A stretch of 20,303 nucleotides of DNA from a virus. Below the pieces are notes generated by a model. That model was given only the letters and a program-made list of their open reading frames with translations, was not told where the DNA came from and did not search any database. Shown here piece after piece: positions 9,439 through 18,995 of the stretch. Numbering within the stretch: position 1 is the stretch's first letter; every line of letters begins with the position of its first letter. Position numbers and translations under genes: made by a program. Location of the stretch: positions 1 through 20,303 of IMG/VR virus record IMGVR_UViG_3300006802_000791. One strand, given 5' to 3'.

Positions 9439-11684
9439 TATCCCTCATTTATTGTTATACGTGGATAGATAGAAATGACTGTTAATGGTAATGGTTGTGT
9501 TTGTCTAACAAAGACAAATCCATCTGTATTAAAATCATCCCTAAATTCTACTTGTTTATCACCAGTAAATAATGGCACGGCTGCATCCATAGAAGCAGCA
9601 CTAGAACGAAATGGTATTCTTTCCATATCATTCAAGTTTGGACCAACTTCTACACCAACAGTTTCGTGTAAACGTAGTGTTACTTCGTGAATACGTTTAT
9701 CTTTAGATTGTGATGTACCGCCTTCGCCACCAGATTCTGCTCTCATTGTTTGCAAAGTAGAGGTATAAGGTAATCCAATATGTACTTTTGTTGCAGAACG
9801 ATCTAATGTCACCGCACCACTTGATACTGTTTTATCAGCGTGGGTTGCTCCATTAGCTAAGATTGTAACTGTTTCACCCTCTAGGTGATCTAATCCTGAA
9901 ATAGTTGTTACTGCACTACCAGAATAAGTTAGTCCACTATCAACATAAAATGCATCTTCCTGATCTGTGCCATAATCAAACAATGTTAAATATTCTACAT
10001 AGCGTCTTGTTGCACCATTGATAGTACGTTTAACAATCATATAAAATTCATCTTCGTTATCTTCTGTAGGAATAGATGCTACACTTTCTACAACAGCATT
10101 TCCTGAAGAAAAACTACCGCCAATAATGTGGCGATGCCATCCTGTTACTTGTTCTGCTCTTGCATAAGTAAAACCAAGTAATGTTCCATCATTTCTAACA
10201 CACCATAAAACACTGTCAGGTTCTTGCTGATATGACATTTCTATAATACCACCTTCGGTAATATGCTCGGCAAGTAATGTTAGATCTGTTGCCTGGTATT
10301 GGTCTATGTTTAGATTGTATGTTAGCTCACGTATTTTTCGTTTTGCTCGTTGTAAAAACATGGTAACGTTTTCTATTTGCACTGCATCTACATTGGCTGC
10401 ACCATAACTTGATTGGCGTTGTATCTGTACGTTTGTTGGGGTGATAGGTTGTGTTGTACCTGATGCACTAACAACAAATTCACCTCCTACTGTACCAACA
10501 ATCAAAGAACGTTGAGCAGATAAAAAACGTATTGCATTTACTTTATTGGATGCAATAGTATAAATCATTGCATCTGTATCATTTGTACCAGCAGTAAAAT
10601 TTTCGTATTGACCTGATTTAGAAAAAAATAAGGCTTGTGGTTGATCAGATGTACCAGCAAAAACTAATCGTTGTTCAAAGAAAGTTACACAAGATGGATG
10701 TCCAGTTGTGTCAGAAAAAGAACCAAGTGACCAATCAGTAGATGAGCTTGTAGAACCCATATCAATTAATATTTCTATTGTTACTACAGTTGTTGATGTA
10801 TATCCTGTAATTTTTCCATAACCATCTCTAAAACTAACTAACCTTCCAACATCTGTTGTTTGAAATCCTGTATCACTATTAATACCTGTTACTGCACTTG
10901 CCGTTAAAGTTCTTCCTGTGCCTACAGTATGTGCTGATGTTGAAAATGTTGTTGTTGTTGCATTAGCATCTAAGTATGGACCATCAACAAAATCAATATC
11001 TGCTAGTGTCCAGGATGTATGACCTGTTCGTGAAAGTTTTTCTACTTCATGGCTTGGATGCGTAATATACATAACGTCTGCACTTTGAGCAAATTTTAAT
11101 TGAAACAAATCCGTAGATGCATATGGACTAGATATTTCATAAATTTTATTCGCAACGCCACCAGATGTATAAGCTGTAAAACCTGTTGTATTAACATTGT
11201 TTCCATCAACATCTTGTAGTTCAAATGTGTTAGTTGTTTTATTAGCAACTTTAAATGTTTTACCATTAACTTCTGTCATTCCAACAACTTCAGTAATAAT
11301 GACATGATCGCCATTAGAGTAACCATGGGAGGAAATGGTAACTACTCCTGGATTAGCTTGTGTTATTCCAGTAATTGTTTTGTCAGATTCTGTAATAATG
11401 CCTTGGTCTTTATAAAAACGAATGTATTGATTACCAAATTCTAAAATATATGTTTGTGTCGTAGAAAATTCAAAAGGTATTAAGCGTGTTGCATTGGCAC
11501 TTGTTTTTACTTCATGCACAAACTTTGTGCCTGGTCTACGTGTTACTGCACCATGAGGATGCACTACCATATTTTCTAATGTTTTACATCCATTAAAATA
11601 TTTACCAATATCAGTTCTACCATCAAGTCGTGGTGATAATTCTCCAGCTGTAAAGTTGGTAAACGAAATGGTCGTTTTTGCCAT
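9438..11684 (-). CDS. Tail tubular protein B / nozzle, gp12-like
   Basis: A 748-residue, beta-rich protein expected to form the distal nozzle of the short tail. The N-terminus FTNFTAGELSPRLDGRTDI, followed by YFNGCKTLENMVVHPHGAV and TRRPGTKFV, is the hallmark of the podoviral gp12-like family. Residues 104-178 (VTISSHGYSNGDHVIITEV then GMTEVNGKTFKVANK and TAYTSGGVA) resemble the small beta domain similar to the E1 FCCH fold found inserted in such proteins. Later repeats of Gly/Thr-rich strands fit a beta-propeller. Length is near T7 gp12 (794). It starts directly after the stop of the gp11-like gene (TAA-ATG) and ends in a TAATG overlap with the GNAT-like gene. Confidence 0.85.
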   Translation of the reverse strand: MAKTTISFTNFTAGELSPRLDGRTDIGKYFNGCKTLENMVVHPHGAVTRRPGTKFVHEVKTSANATRLIPFEFSTTQTYILEFGNQYIRFYKDQGIITESDKTITGITQANPGVVTISSHGYSNGDHVIITEVVGMTEVNGKTFKVANKTTNTFELQDVDGNNVNTTGFTAYTSGGVANKIYEISSPYASTDLFQLKFAQSADVMYITHPSHEVEKLSRTGHTSWTLADIDFVDGPYLDANATTTTFSTSAHTVGTGRTLTASAVTGINSDTGFQTTDVGRLVSFRDGYGKITGYTSTTVVTIEILIDMGSTSSSTDWSLGSFSDTTGHPSCVTFFEQRLVFAGTSDQPQALFFSKSGQYENFTAGTNDTDAMIYTIASNKVNAIRFLSAQRSLIVGTVGGEFVVSASGTTQPITPTNVQIQRQSSYGAANVDAVQIENVTMFLQRAKRKIRELTYNLNIDQYQATDLTLLAEHITEGGIIEMSYQQEPDSVLWCVRNDGTLLGFTYARAEQVTGWHRHIIGGSFSSGNAVVESVASIPTEDNEDEFYMIVKRTINGATRRYVEYLTLFDYGTDQEDAFYVDSGLTYSGSAVTTISGLDHLEGETVTILANGATHADKTVSSGAVTLDRSATKVHIGLPYTSTLQTMRAESGGEGGTSQSKDKRIHEVTLRLHETVGVEVGPNLNDMERIPFRSSAASMDAAVPLFTGDKQVEFRDDFNTDGFVFVRQTQPLPLTVISIYPRITINEG

Positions 11685-15032: not shown

Positions 15033-15251
15033 TTATTTTTCCTTTTCTTTTTTTAACATTGATTTAATAAATAAAGTGACGGCTCTCATTCCCTCTAAAT
15101 TTGCTGCAACATATGGATCTTTGTCAAATGTTGATGTATGTATTCCTGTTCGTTGTTCCAAGTCTGCTAAAACTATTTCTCCTTCTTTAGAAGAAAAGCA
15201 TTGTTGATACGAAGAACGTAATTCTTTTAATTTATCTTCCTGTTGCGCCAC
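15033..15251 (-). CDS. Bbp19-like small protein
   Basis: A 72-residue protein: LKELRSSYQQCFSSKEGEIV, LADLEQRTGIHTSTF, DPYVAANLEGMRAVTLFI. The pattern 'Y..vF....G..VL.DL......TF...DP..t...EG.RaV.L.I' matches the small Bbp19-type protein found between portal and scaffold in BPP-1-like and related podoviruses. Role unknown, probably in head assembly or as a minor structural part. Its first 20 nt overlap the 3' end of the portal gene, and it ends 1 nt before the scaffold ATG. Confidence 0.7.
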   Translation of the reverse strand: MAQQEDKLKELRSSYQQCFSSKEGEIVLADLEQRTGIHTSTFDKDPYVAANLEGMRAVTLFIKSMLKKEKEK

Positions 15252-16830
15252 CAGCTAACTCCTTTAATAATGGTGCAGCTTTTCCTCCAGCTTCTGCAAG
15301 TTGTGATGTTTCATCTAACTCTGCTTGACGCTGTGCTGCTTCTGCTTGTTGTTGACGTATCTCTGCTACTTCTTGATCAGATCGTAATACTTTTCGTGGT
15401 ACACCCAATACATCTGTTACGTGCTTAACTAATTTATCACTATCAATGTAATCCATGACAGGCATTGACTGACCTAATGGAGCGATGATTTCTAGTGAAC
15501 GCAGTATTGCTTGTATTTCACCAGTACGTTGTGATCTTGCTAATGGTGATACATACTCAATATCAACTGTTTGACCTTGCAATGACATTGGTGGTGTTGG
15601 TAATATTTCTTTTCTTAGTAAAATATTAAAACAACGTGTAATTAATGGTTGCAACATTTCTGATTGTAGTCTGCCAAGGACAGGAGCAAGTAATCGCATT
15701 TTCTCCTCGTTTCGTTGCATAACTTCCGTTGCTGTCATCTGCACATTCTGTGATAATAATAATTGATCTACATAATAGGCTTGTCTGATTGCATTACGTC
15801 TTTGTTCTTCTAGGTTAATACCAACAGGTGTATTTGCACCTATGTTTAATGCCTCAATTCTATCTCTACTACCAGATCTATAATAGTTTAAACCACCAGG
15901 TTGTGTTCTTACAGGTAAAACAAAACTATCATCTGGTACTAATAATGGGGGATCTACCATCTTTTGTGCTGCTTTAATGGTTGTTTCAGCCATTTTATTT
16001 AACATTTTTATGTCTGGTAAGGCTGTCATACTAGGTGATCTGCCATATACTTCTGCACTAGACTCCAACCAACGTGGTACAACAAAAGGAAATTCATTGA
16101 ATCCTGATACAGATATGATGTTTCCATCCTCATTATCATAGTAAATAGAAGTAAATGCCATAGATTTATTATCCATTTTGTATGGATTGAGTTTATCATT
16201 AGGCTTAACACACTGATGTATTGTTACTTCATCATATGGACTATTCTTTGCTGCATCTAATAATCGTTTTGATAGTTTATTTCCAAATCTATTAAATGCC
16301 GCTTTAGCGGTCATTTTAAATTCACGATGAACTGTATCTACATACCCTTTATCATTTTCTGCAATATAAATTTCTTTGATATGTCTTGTAGAAAAACGCA
16401 ATAATTTTTGTTCATCTTCCTCAATCATCATACACGATGTGCCAAACGTACATAGATCTACATACAATTCATGGACTTCTTGTTGAAAGTTAGAACGTGC
16501 AAGAGCAATATACATTGCCTGGGTAGATGACTCTAACCATTCTCTACTTTCCTCATCCATGGCTAATGTTTCATCTTTGAAACGCATACTAAACCAAGGT
16601 GTTGCTGCATTGGTCAACATTCCATGCAACGAGGAAGAAAGTAATTCTGCGGCGTGTAATGCTGTTCCATCAAAAATAAATTCGGTACGTTTATCTCCTG
16701 GTGTTCTATCTATATTAACATCAGCTCTTCTTGGTAGCACATAGTCTGCTATTTCTTGCCAATGACTTTCCCAGTTTCGTCTTTTATTTTTTAATTCTGA
16801 AAACTGATTACTTAATTCTGATACATCCAT
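15232..16830 (-). CDS. Portal protein (head-tail connector, gp8-like)
   Basis: A 532-residue portal subunit (T7 gp8 is 536). Family signs are LKNKRRNWESHWQEIADYVL (residues 13-32), AAELLSSSLHGMLTN and PWFSMRF, the 'GYVDTVHREFKMTAKA' block, and a central YYRSGSRDRIEALNIG leading to IRQAYYVDQLLL and MTATEVMQRNEEKMR. The C-terminus is a charged Gln/Glu-rich helix. The portal forms the dodecamer through which TerL packages DNA and to which the gp11-like adaptor binds. An AGGA in the last codons of the preceding gene (TTAGGACAATAA) is its ribosome site, with ATG one base after the stop. Confidence 0.9.
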   Translation of the reverse strand: MDVSELSNQFSELKNKRRNWESHWQEIADYVLPRRADVNIDRTPGDKRTEFIFDGTALHAAELLSSSLHGMLTNAATPWFSMRFKDETLAMDEESREWLESSTQAMYIALARSNFQQEVHELYVDLCTFGTSCMMIEEDEQKLLRFSTRHIKEIYIAENDKGYVDTVHREFKMTAKAAFNRFGNKLSKRLLDAAKNSPYDEVTIHQCVKPNDKLNPYKMDNKSMAFTSIYYDNEDGNIISVSGFNEFPFVVPRWLESSAEVYGRSPSMTALPDIKMLNKMAETTIKAAQKMVDPPLLVPDDSFVLPVRTQPGGLNYYRSGSRDRIEALNIGANTPVGINLEEQRRNAIRQAYYVDQLLLSQNVQMTATEVMQRNEEKMRLLAPVLGRLQSEMLQPLITRCFNILLRKEILPTPPMSLQGQTVDIEYVSPLARSQRTGEIQAILRSLEIIAPLGQSMPVMDYIDSDKLVKHVTDVLGVPRKVLRSDQEVAEIRQQQAEAAQRQAELDETSQLAEAGGKAAPLLKELAGGATGR

Positions 16831-16831
16831 G

Positions 16832-17314
16832 TTATTGTCCTAATGTTGTTTTTCTTCTATTGTTACCCTTCATTCCTAATAATCCTAAAACTGTTCTATC
16901 ACTTGTAAAAGGTTTGCCTGATTGTTTTGCTTGAAACATTTTTGTATAATCTTCATATGCTTCTTTAGGTTGTGCAAAATCAGCAGCTGCTTTACCAGCC
17001 GCTATACGCATTGGAGCGCCTATGATTGTTGGAGCGCCTATAGATGCAGCAGCAAATATTAATGCTTTTGCTTTATTTTGTGATTTTAACATTTCACTAG
17101 AAATTGCTGTTGATGTTAATGCACCGCTTGGATCACCAGTACCCATTGCTGTACTTGTTCCACCAGCACCATATTTTAATCCAGCACCATATGATGTTAG
17201 TATTGGTCTACCTGATGCTGTTTTAATAATGTTACCAGATGAATCTTTCATTACTGCACCTTCTACATTTTTTAACGACATATCAATCGCTTCTGCTACT
17301 TTACCGCCATACAT
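16832..17314 (-). CDS. Hypothetical Gly/Ala-rich protein, 3' portion of a stop-interrupted gene
   Basis: A 160-residue ORF starting MYGGKVAEAIDMSLKNVEGA, with Gly/Ala/Ser-rich middle (LTSYGAGLKYGAGG), a hydrophobic Ala/Ile segment near 86-106 (IFAAASIGAPTIIGAPMRIA) and C-terminus VLGLLGMKGNNRRKTTLGQ. Its ATG at 17314 has no good ribosome site. The same frame stays open a further 27 codons upstream (QQNVVNKVKVKKAAAEEKQK, coiled-coil-like), up to a TAA at 17396-17398, and continues beyond that TAA to a well-placed ATG at 17479. The natural gene is therefore probably 16832-17479 (215 codons) and this is its larger, unbroken part. It lies between the small Pro-rich gene and the portal; function is unknown, possibly a minor head or core component. 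Confidence 0.65.
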   Translation of the reverse strand: MYGGKVAEAIDMSLKNVEGAVMKDSSGNIIKTASGRPILTSYGAGLKYGAGGTSTAMGTGDPSGALTSTAISSEMLKSQNKAKALIFAAASIGAPTIIGAPMRIAAGKAAADFAQPKEAYEDYTKMFQAKQSGKPFTSDRTVLGLLGMKGNNRRKTTLGQ

Positions 17315-17395
17315 TTTATTACCAGCTGCTATTTGTTTTTGTTTTTCTTCTGCCGCTGCTTTTTTTACTTTAACCTTATTAACAACATTTTGTTG

Positions 17396-17479
17396 TTATC
17401 TTCTATCTCTTTCACCACCGCCGTAACTTCCGCCGCCGCCTCCACTACTTCTTCCACTTGTTGCTGTACTTGCACCCAT
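17396..17479 (-). pseudogene. 5' Gly/Ser-rich fragment of the gene continued at 17395-16832
   Basis: An ATG at 17479, with AGGA 7 nt upstream, starts MGASTATSGRSSGGGGGSYG, then GGERDRR and a TAA. The 27-codon fragment is in the same frame as the 160-residue ORF downstream, with no frameshift needed. A Gly/Ser-rich start followed by a charged helix and Gly/Ala body is what one would expect of one protein. A single C-to-T change (CAA to TAA; the next two codons are CAA) would explain the break. Alternatives are genuine short-peptide translation, stop readthrough, or a base error. Confidence 0.55.
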
Positions 17480-17701
17480 TTATTGTCCTAACAATGTTTT
17501 CTTTGCTATTTCAGGTTCTGATTCATCACCTGTTGTGCTTGTTAAAATTGTTTCTGTGTATCCTTTTTTCTTTAAACGTATTGCTTCTGCTATTTTTTTC
17601 TTTTGCTCTTCTGATAAATCTTCTCCTGTTGCTGGAGGAGGACTAGGAGGAGGAGGAGCTATTGGTGGTAATGGTGGAGCTTTTGGTTTTAAAAATCCCA
17701 T
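17480..17701 (-). CDS. Small proline-rich protein next to terminase
   Basis: A 73-residue protein: a proline-rich head (KPKAPPLPPIAPPPPSPPPA), then a Lys/Glu helix (LSEEQKKKIAEAIRLKKKGY) and C-terminus TETILTSTTGDE...AKKTLLGQ. The last part matches a short motif, 'TILTS..GD...KKTLLG', seen in small proteins beside terminase and portal genes in many phages; the role is unknown. AGGA 7 nt before the ATG comes from the end of the terminase gene, and the stop abuts the next ATG. The C-terminal KKTLLGQ is echoed by KTTLGQ in the neighbouring gene. Confidence 0.75.
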   Translation of the reverse strand: MGFLKPKAPPLPPIAPPPPSPPPATGEDLSEEQKKKIAEAIRLKKKGYTETILTSTTGDESEPEIAKKTLLGQ

Positions 17702-17702
17702 A

Positions 17703-18995
17703 CTATATCCTATTTCCTAAAGGGTTATAATTTGTGCCAGTAGCTATTTTTTCAAATCTTTTTTGTTCGTTCATATCCAACTCTTGCAAAGCGACAGCAC
17801 AAGTTCTCCAGGCATCCGCATAATGCGAGGAGTGATCGTGTACTGGTTTAGAAAATACACGTTGCTTATCAATCCATTTACGATGATACCATTTCATCGC
17901 ATCAAGAAATTCTCTGCAATTACTTCTATCAATAAATGTCTTACTTAGCAAGATTTGTCCAGCATGAATACCATCTTCTAGTGATAATTTTGGACAAACT
18001 TTTATTGGTCGCATTCCCATGGAATATGCATACTCTTTCCTAGAGTGTCCAGTTGATAGTTCTCGTTGTTCAATATCATGCGGAAAAACATAATTACGAA
18101 TATTGTATTCTGTTTTATGAATATAATCAGCATAAAAATCTAATGACTTATTGCTATCAGCGTAACAATTTATAACAAACAATGCTCTTCCAATATGTTG
18201 CACAAACAAAATAACTGTTTTATCACTAATTCCTAAATCAAAATAAACATCTACTGGATACCCTGGATCATAAGGAAAGTGTGATATACGCTTTTCATCT
18301 TCCATTTTTTGTATAATTTTACCATAAATAGATCCTGATATATTCGCAGTCCAAGAACATTCAAATTCTTGCATATATTGATCTTCTGACATTAGATCTT
18401 TTGCGGAATCTAATTCTTCTTGTGGTACTAATCCTGTTTCACTTGCTTTGAACGTACACGTAAACCAGTCAGGTAATGATTTTGCTTCTTCAAACAAGTC
18501 ATAAAAATTATTTCCCATTCCAGCTGGTGTTCCTATAAAGCAAACTTTTCCACGTCTATCAGCGATTGCTGGTCGGATAATCTCTGCAAACATTCTACCA
18601 TCCATTTGTGCATACTCATCACACACAACGAAGTCAAAGTATTGACCTCTGGCACTATCAGGATTTTCTGCACCGAATAATGTTATTCTGCCACCAGTAG
18701 GATAGTCAGCACGTAGTTCTGTTTCGTTAAACTTGACTCCAGGAATCTTGCGTGAAAATTCTTTTAAGTAATCCCATGCTACTAATTTTGACTGCACCCT
18801 TGTTGGAGAAAAGAATGCACCCCTAAAATTCTTTTGTTGGCTTGTTAATGCGAGCTTAATAAGGTGATTAATCGCAAATACTGTTTTACCAGCTCTACGA
18901 TGCATAACCGCTACAGCGAACCTGTATTCGTCTAGTTTGCCGTGCAGCATCTTTTGTTGTGGTCTAGGAGAGTATGGTATTTTAATTACTTGCAT
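17703..18995 (-). CDS. terL: Terminase large subunit (packaging ATPase/nuclease)
   Basis: A 430-residue motor that cuts and pumps DNA into the head. Visible motifs: adenine-binding RPQQ (11-14), Walker A MHRRAGKT (31-38), Walker B DFVVCDE (121-127) with catalytic Glu127, and coupling motif VCFIGTPAG (151-159). The nuclease half follows: QYMQEFECSW (207-216), then VDVYFDLGISD with a likely metal-binding Asp254, and a late DHSSHYADAWR with a further Asp. The length (430) is shorter than T7 gp19 (586) but normal for many terminases. Its ATG overlaps the stop of a 54-residue ORF (TAATG). Confidence 0.9.
   Translation of the reverse strand: MQVIKIPYSPRPQQKMLHGKLDEYRFAVAVMHRRAGKTVFAINHLIKLALTSQQKNFRGAFFSPTRVQSKLVAWDYLKEFSRKIPGVKFNETELRADYPTGGRITLFGAENPDSARGQYFDFVVCDEYAQMDGRMFAEIIRPAIADRRGKVCFIGTPAGMGNNFYDLFEEAKSLPDWFTCTFKASETGLVPQEELDSAKDLMSEDQYMQEFECSWTANISGSIYGKIIQKMEDEKRISHFPYDPGYPVDVYFDLGISDKTVILFVQHIGRALFVINCYADSNKSLDFYADYIHKTEYNIRNYVFPHDIEQRELSTGHSRKEYAYSMGMRPIKVCPKLSLEDGIHAGQILLSKTFIDRSNCREFLDAMKWYHRKWIDKQRVFSKPVHDHSSHYADAWRTCAVALQELDMNEQKRFEKIATGTNYNPLGNRI

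Follow-up and report, generated by a model that had tools for sequence, protein, structure and literature searches.

Results

Organization of the interrupted reading frame

The window analysed, a virus record of 20,303 bases to the whole of which all position numbers refer, carries on its minus strand a reading frame interrupted by a single in-frame TAA, and the question is raised whether this stop takes part in the expression of the gene, through readthrough, bypass or restart of translation, or is a single changed base. The frame starts with ATG at 17479 and runs through 27 codons to the TAA at 17396-17398, beyond which no further stop occurs before the one at 16832-16834. An earlier note, made from the letters of this DNA, had described the frame with this start, this TAA, an ATG at 17314 and an end at 16834, all of which are borne out in the sequence (Table 1). 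Two details of the same description had to be corrected. The AGGA in front of the start, placed by the note inside the preceding stop codon, belongs to the codons with which the upstream gene ends (TTA GGA CAA TAA), and the ribosome site of ATG 17479, taken there as the best of the region, is a moderate one, with a calculated anti-Shine-Dalgarno pairing of -3.9 kcal/mol against -10.2 to -5.8 kcal/mol for several neighbours.

Table 1. Features of the interrupted gene and its surroundings in the window
Feature	Position	Strand	Remarks
Terminase large subunit	17703..18995	minus	
73-aa gene upstream of the interrupted gene	17480..17701	minus	PHROG 831
AGGA, Shine-Dalgarno sequence of ATG 17479	17486..17489	minus	Within the last codons of the upstream gene
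Frame of the interrupted gene	16832..17479	minus	215 codons plus stop; codon 28 is TAA; unbroken in L001/L015 and L002/L012
Gly/Ser-rich head, codons 1-27	17399..17479	minus	Predicted disordered up to residue 20; only synonymous changes between L001 and L002
In-frame TAA	17396..17398	minus	Sister contig: Glu codon
Perfect 8-bp inverted repeat, TAACAACA-AAA-TGTTGTTA	17380..17398	minus	Completed by the stop-making change
Codons 29-55, charged helix, from the stop to the possible restart ATG	17315..17395	minus	
160-aa frame beginning MYGGKV at the possible restart ATG	16832..17314	minus	Every one of the 16 residues that do not vary among 18 family members lies here
Portal (head-to-tail connecting protein)	15232..16830	minus	

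The late genes on the minus strand are those for the terminase large subunit, the 73-aa protein, the interrupted gene product, the portal, a 72-aa protein, a capsid-assembly-like protein (assigned by position), the major capsid protein and tail proteins. Among annotated records, isolated HTVC010P-type pelagiphages (HTVC010P, HTVC024P, HTVC100P, Greip, and Skadi) come closest; they are about 66-69% identical in DNA over terminase and portal and share the order of terminase large subunit, small genes, portal, capsid assembly and major capsid. The window comes from a marine podovirus related to the HTVC010P-type pelagiphages, and since its nearest annotated records are of this type, we infer a SAR11 bacterium as the host. 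The gene at the equivalent position in these phages differs in that its product has no detectable homology to the protein studied here (hhalign probability 0.5%; no match by tblastn).

Both genes preceding the portal gene (17480-17701 and 16832-17479, minus strand) end in TLLGQ / TTLGQ, and the Leu-Gly codons TTA GGA of these ends serve at the same time as ribosome-binding site for the gene that follows. In the other loci compared (L016-L020, L021-L042), this overlap recurs in most loci of the family of the interrupted gene, and LLG-type endings are found also in the genes before the portal of the cultured, HTVC010P-type pelagiphages, the proteins being otherwise unrelated. No promoter or terminator above the chance level was detected near the split. 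A probable tail-fibre gene at 1-1263 of the window (minus strand), cut by the window end, contains long Ala/Ser/Thr repeats of the type SATNAATSETNAAT.

The gene is unbroken in its relatives

The population itself is represented by two contigs, the window and a sister contig (L015; IMG/VR 3300025769_002593), which is 99.84% identical to the window over 12,013 bases, with 19 substitutions and no insertions or deletions. At the position of the TAA in the window, the sister contig carries Glu, and its gene is a single unbroken frame of 215 codons. A relative at about 96% (L002/L012) also has a sense base at this site and an intact frame, and L013/L014, which are more distant, agree with the sister contig in this base. 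In a wider search, no internal stop was found in any of 31 family loci, a set that includes some near duplicates and four loci lacking the 5' end because the contig ends there.

Family loci with the 5' end present start at the position matching ATG 17479, with the head in frame, and none at the methionine of MYGGKV, where a start in all homologues, with unrelated sequence upstream, had been named by the earlier note as speaking against a split gene. Their heads are mostly rich in Gly, Ser and Asn and often MGxST-like. In most loci the start of the gene touches or overlaps the stop of the upstream gene, and the order of terminase, this gene and portal is kept in those loci in which matches to these neighbours are present.

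Comparison of L001 with L002 gave 13 synonymous and seven nonsynonymous changes over the whole gene (pS 0.088, pN 0.014), and four synonymous and no nonsynonymous changes over codons 1-27. The ratio of 4 to 0 in the head, together with the excess of pS over pN in the gene, indicates that the gene evolves as one protein under purifying selection. The proposal in the note that the 27 codons after the TAA form a charged helix connecting head and body agrees with the AlphaFold2 model, in which a helix is predicted at residues 21-51, with a block pLDDT of 84-89 from residue 31 on. Because this predicted helix spans the stop, and because the 99.84% identical contig and all homologues carry both parts as an unbroken frame, the comparison indicates that the parts on either side of the TAA are one gene and not a chance alignment of frames.

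Two other arrangements were considered and ruled out. A pair of independent genes, of which the upstream one would be unrelated to the body, disagrees with the in-frame head of the homologues and with the changes between L001 and L002 in codons 1-27, all of them synonymous; a frameshift disagrees with the alignments, which are without a gap.

Nature of the stop-making change

The stop was generated by a single G-to-T change on the coding strand, which turned the Glu codon at position 28 into TAA. Among the 19 differences between the window and the sister contig, 10 are synonymous, eight are nonsynonymous and one is the stop. Random single changes are expected to be synonymous in 21%, nonsynonymous in 73% and stops in 5.5% of cases, the fraction of stops rising to 16.5% for G-to-T changes, and one stop among 19 differences therefore needs no special cause. 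The interrupted gene is the only true gene with a stop in the compared stretches, in line with the earlier view that TAA is not recoded generally in this genome. The exact 36-base sequence bearing the stop was found in no other contig of IMG/VR, from which search the record of the window itself was evidently left out.

On these comparisons, the stop is very probably a derived and private nonsense change that splits a gene found unbroken in every known relative; it is either a real allele that is rare, or else an error at this base. The single private substitution is consistent with two of the three readings offered previously, a point mutation and a wrong base; the third, readthrough or bypass as a property of the gene, is not supported, because the codon at this site is a sense codon in the relatives.

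Hairpin at the stop codon

The stop codon is part of an inverted repeat (Table 1). In the sister contig, the same site lies next to a hairpin of which the arm has 7 bp and the loop three bases, and the change in the window adds one outer pair, giving the 8-bp arm. Only about 0.03% of the possible single changes extend an arm of this kind (at least 7 bp, with a loop of up to 5). Perfect repeats (arm of at least 7, loop of up to 6) are formed by three of the 19 differences against 0.25 expected, at a nominal p of about 0.002 with thresholds set after the site had been seen. At window positions 10134 and 7806, two further differences complete 7-bp hairpins in the sister contig.

An excess of hairpins was detected neither among 164 isolated differences to L012 nor among 391 differences within other near-identical contig groups (three observed against 6.65 expected). 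These wider comparisons give no support to hairpin-templated mutation as a general force, the nominal excess in one pair not being reproduced in the others.

Template-switch mutation at quasipalindromes has been documented (Ripley 1982, in the account given in PMC7202029), as have library artefacts at inverted repeats (PMC10908179). The present change resembles the former in that a substitution lengthens or perfects an inverted repeat, but differs in that it concerns one site with one outer pair added, and in that the controls showed no general excess. Since the changed base stands at the end of the hairpin arm, which it lengthens, the change may have arisen when a strand folded back during replication or library preparation; the hairpin as the cause of a mutation or an artefact at this one site is weakly suggested.

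Structure and possible function of the intact protein

The AlphaFold2 model of the intact protein is helical and of moderate confidence (pLDDT 71, pTM 0.62), with disordered ends. The predicted helical body includes a short hydrophobic stretch, and the head, rich in Gly, Ser and Asn, is predicted to be disordered. The family has an invariant core around AMGxGDxxG...IS..M...Q. No match to the family was found in Pfam or PHROGs or among PDB sequences, and a fold search of PDB with the model gave no match with E below 2.7. By tblastn with three family members, no relatives were found among isolated phages, and bacterial and archaeal genomes likewise yielded no relatives of the family. A library of viral structures contained one relative, A0A516LGP4 (E 2e-9, 32% identity); this entry gives no hint of a function.

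From the position of the gene between the large terminase and the portal, and from the general character of the product, with its disordered Gly/Ser/Asn-rich head, its body of predicted helices and the short hydrophobic stretch in that body, we infer that the normal product is probably a small protein of virion assembly or ejection. Small virion genes are placed before the portal gene in other podoviruses such as T7. In T7, the core protein gp6.7 is located at the portal, and gp7.3 serves as a scaffold at the adaptor-nozzle junction for nozzle assembly (J Virol 2024, PMC11784390), and in phage Peru-2, unplaced small open reading frames upstream of the portal gene were given gp6.7- or gp7.3-like roles by position (PMC13320782). 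The intact protein would play a part like that of T7 gp6.7 or gp7.3, which are also small podovirus proteins, its gene being likewise small, within the structural module and beside the portal gene. It differs from them in showing no match in sequence or fold, and gp6.7 has 88 amino acids against 215 for the present protein.

Discussion

For the G-to-T change at codon 28, two origins come into question, a loss-of-function allele present at low frequency among the sampled phages and an incorrect base in the assembled contig; from the sequence, both fit about equally well, each with a little less than an even chance of being correct. If the base is wrong, through sequencing, library preparation or assembly, the phage has an intact gene. 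The stop is private to the contig of the window, and no other of the 19 differences from the near-identical sister creates a stop; errors escape selection, and a stop is hence more likely among errors than among real variants. In addition, the end of a hairpin arm is the kind of place for which fold-back artefacts of libraries have been described (PMC10908179). Against an error, however, the base of a contig is normally the consensus of several reads, and the remaining differences, with 10 synonymous to eight nonsynonymous instead of the 21% to 73% expected at random, resemble real variation.

The same pattern of a single lesion would be left by a real and recent loss-of-function allele, a reading that stands close to even as well, and three of the 19 differences, the stop included, fall within this gene. 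Phage populations carry rare deleterious variants. Genomes with such an allele would be defective, or the gene would be dispensable or complemented in mixed infection; the gene, however, is conserved, intact in all relatives and under purifying selection, and neither a second lesion nor any sign of decay is present. If the allele is real, a Gly/Ser-rich peptide of 27 residues would be made, and the full-length protein would be lost, save for any product restarted from 17314.

That the split gene is functional, with restart at ATG 17314 giving a working 160-aa body, with or without the head peptide, is improbable. All the invariant residues sit in the body, so that some function might survive, and the calculated pairing of ATG 17314 (-3.6 kcal/mol) is near that of the true start; however, a fifth of background ATGs pair equally well, a start equivalent to 17314 is present in no relative, and the predicted helix at residues 21-51 would be lost. 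Still less probable is a phage lineage in which a conserved gene of the structural module works in split form, as a free Gly/Ser head peptide and a restarted body of 160 amino acids.

Programmed readthrough or bypass of the TAA, for which the open frame on both sides and the involvement of the stop in the 8-bp hairpin could be counted, is hardly credible, since all relatives have a sense codon, leaving no programmed stop to be read through and no recoding signal that could have been kept, and since the surrounding sequence is, apart from one base, that of the sister contig; as a conserved feature it is refuted.

The comparison of contigs thus gives no support to a new way of reading genes and points instead to a one-off mutation or a sequencing error, of the two kinds considered above. 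The phenomenon itself is ordinary, as mutation or error can be expected to leave single private stops in contigs of environmental phages, and the lesson is that sister contigs should be consulted on any such stop before recoding is proposed. As a by-product, a defined and unannotated protein family is recognized between terminase and portal in marine podoviruses, represented here almost only by uncultured contigs together with A0A516LGP4.
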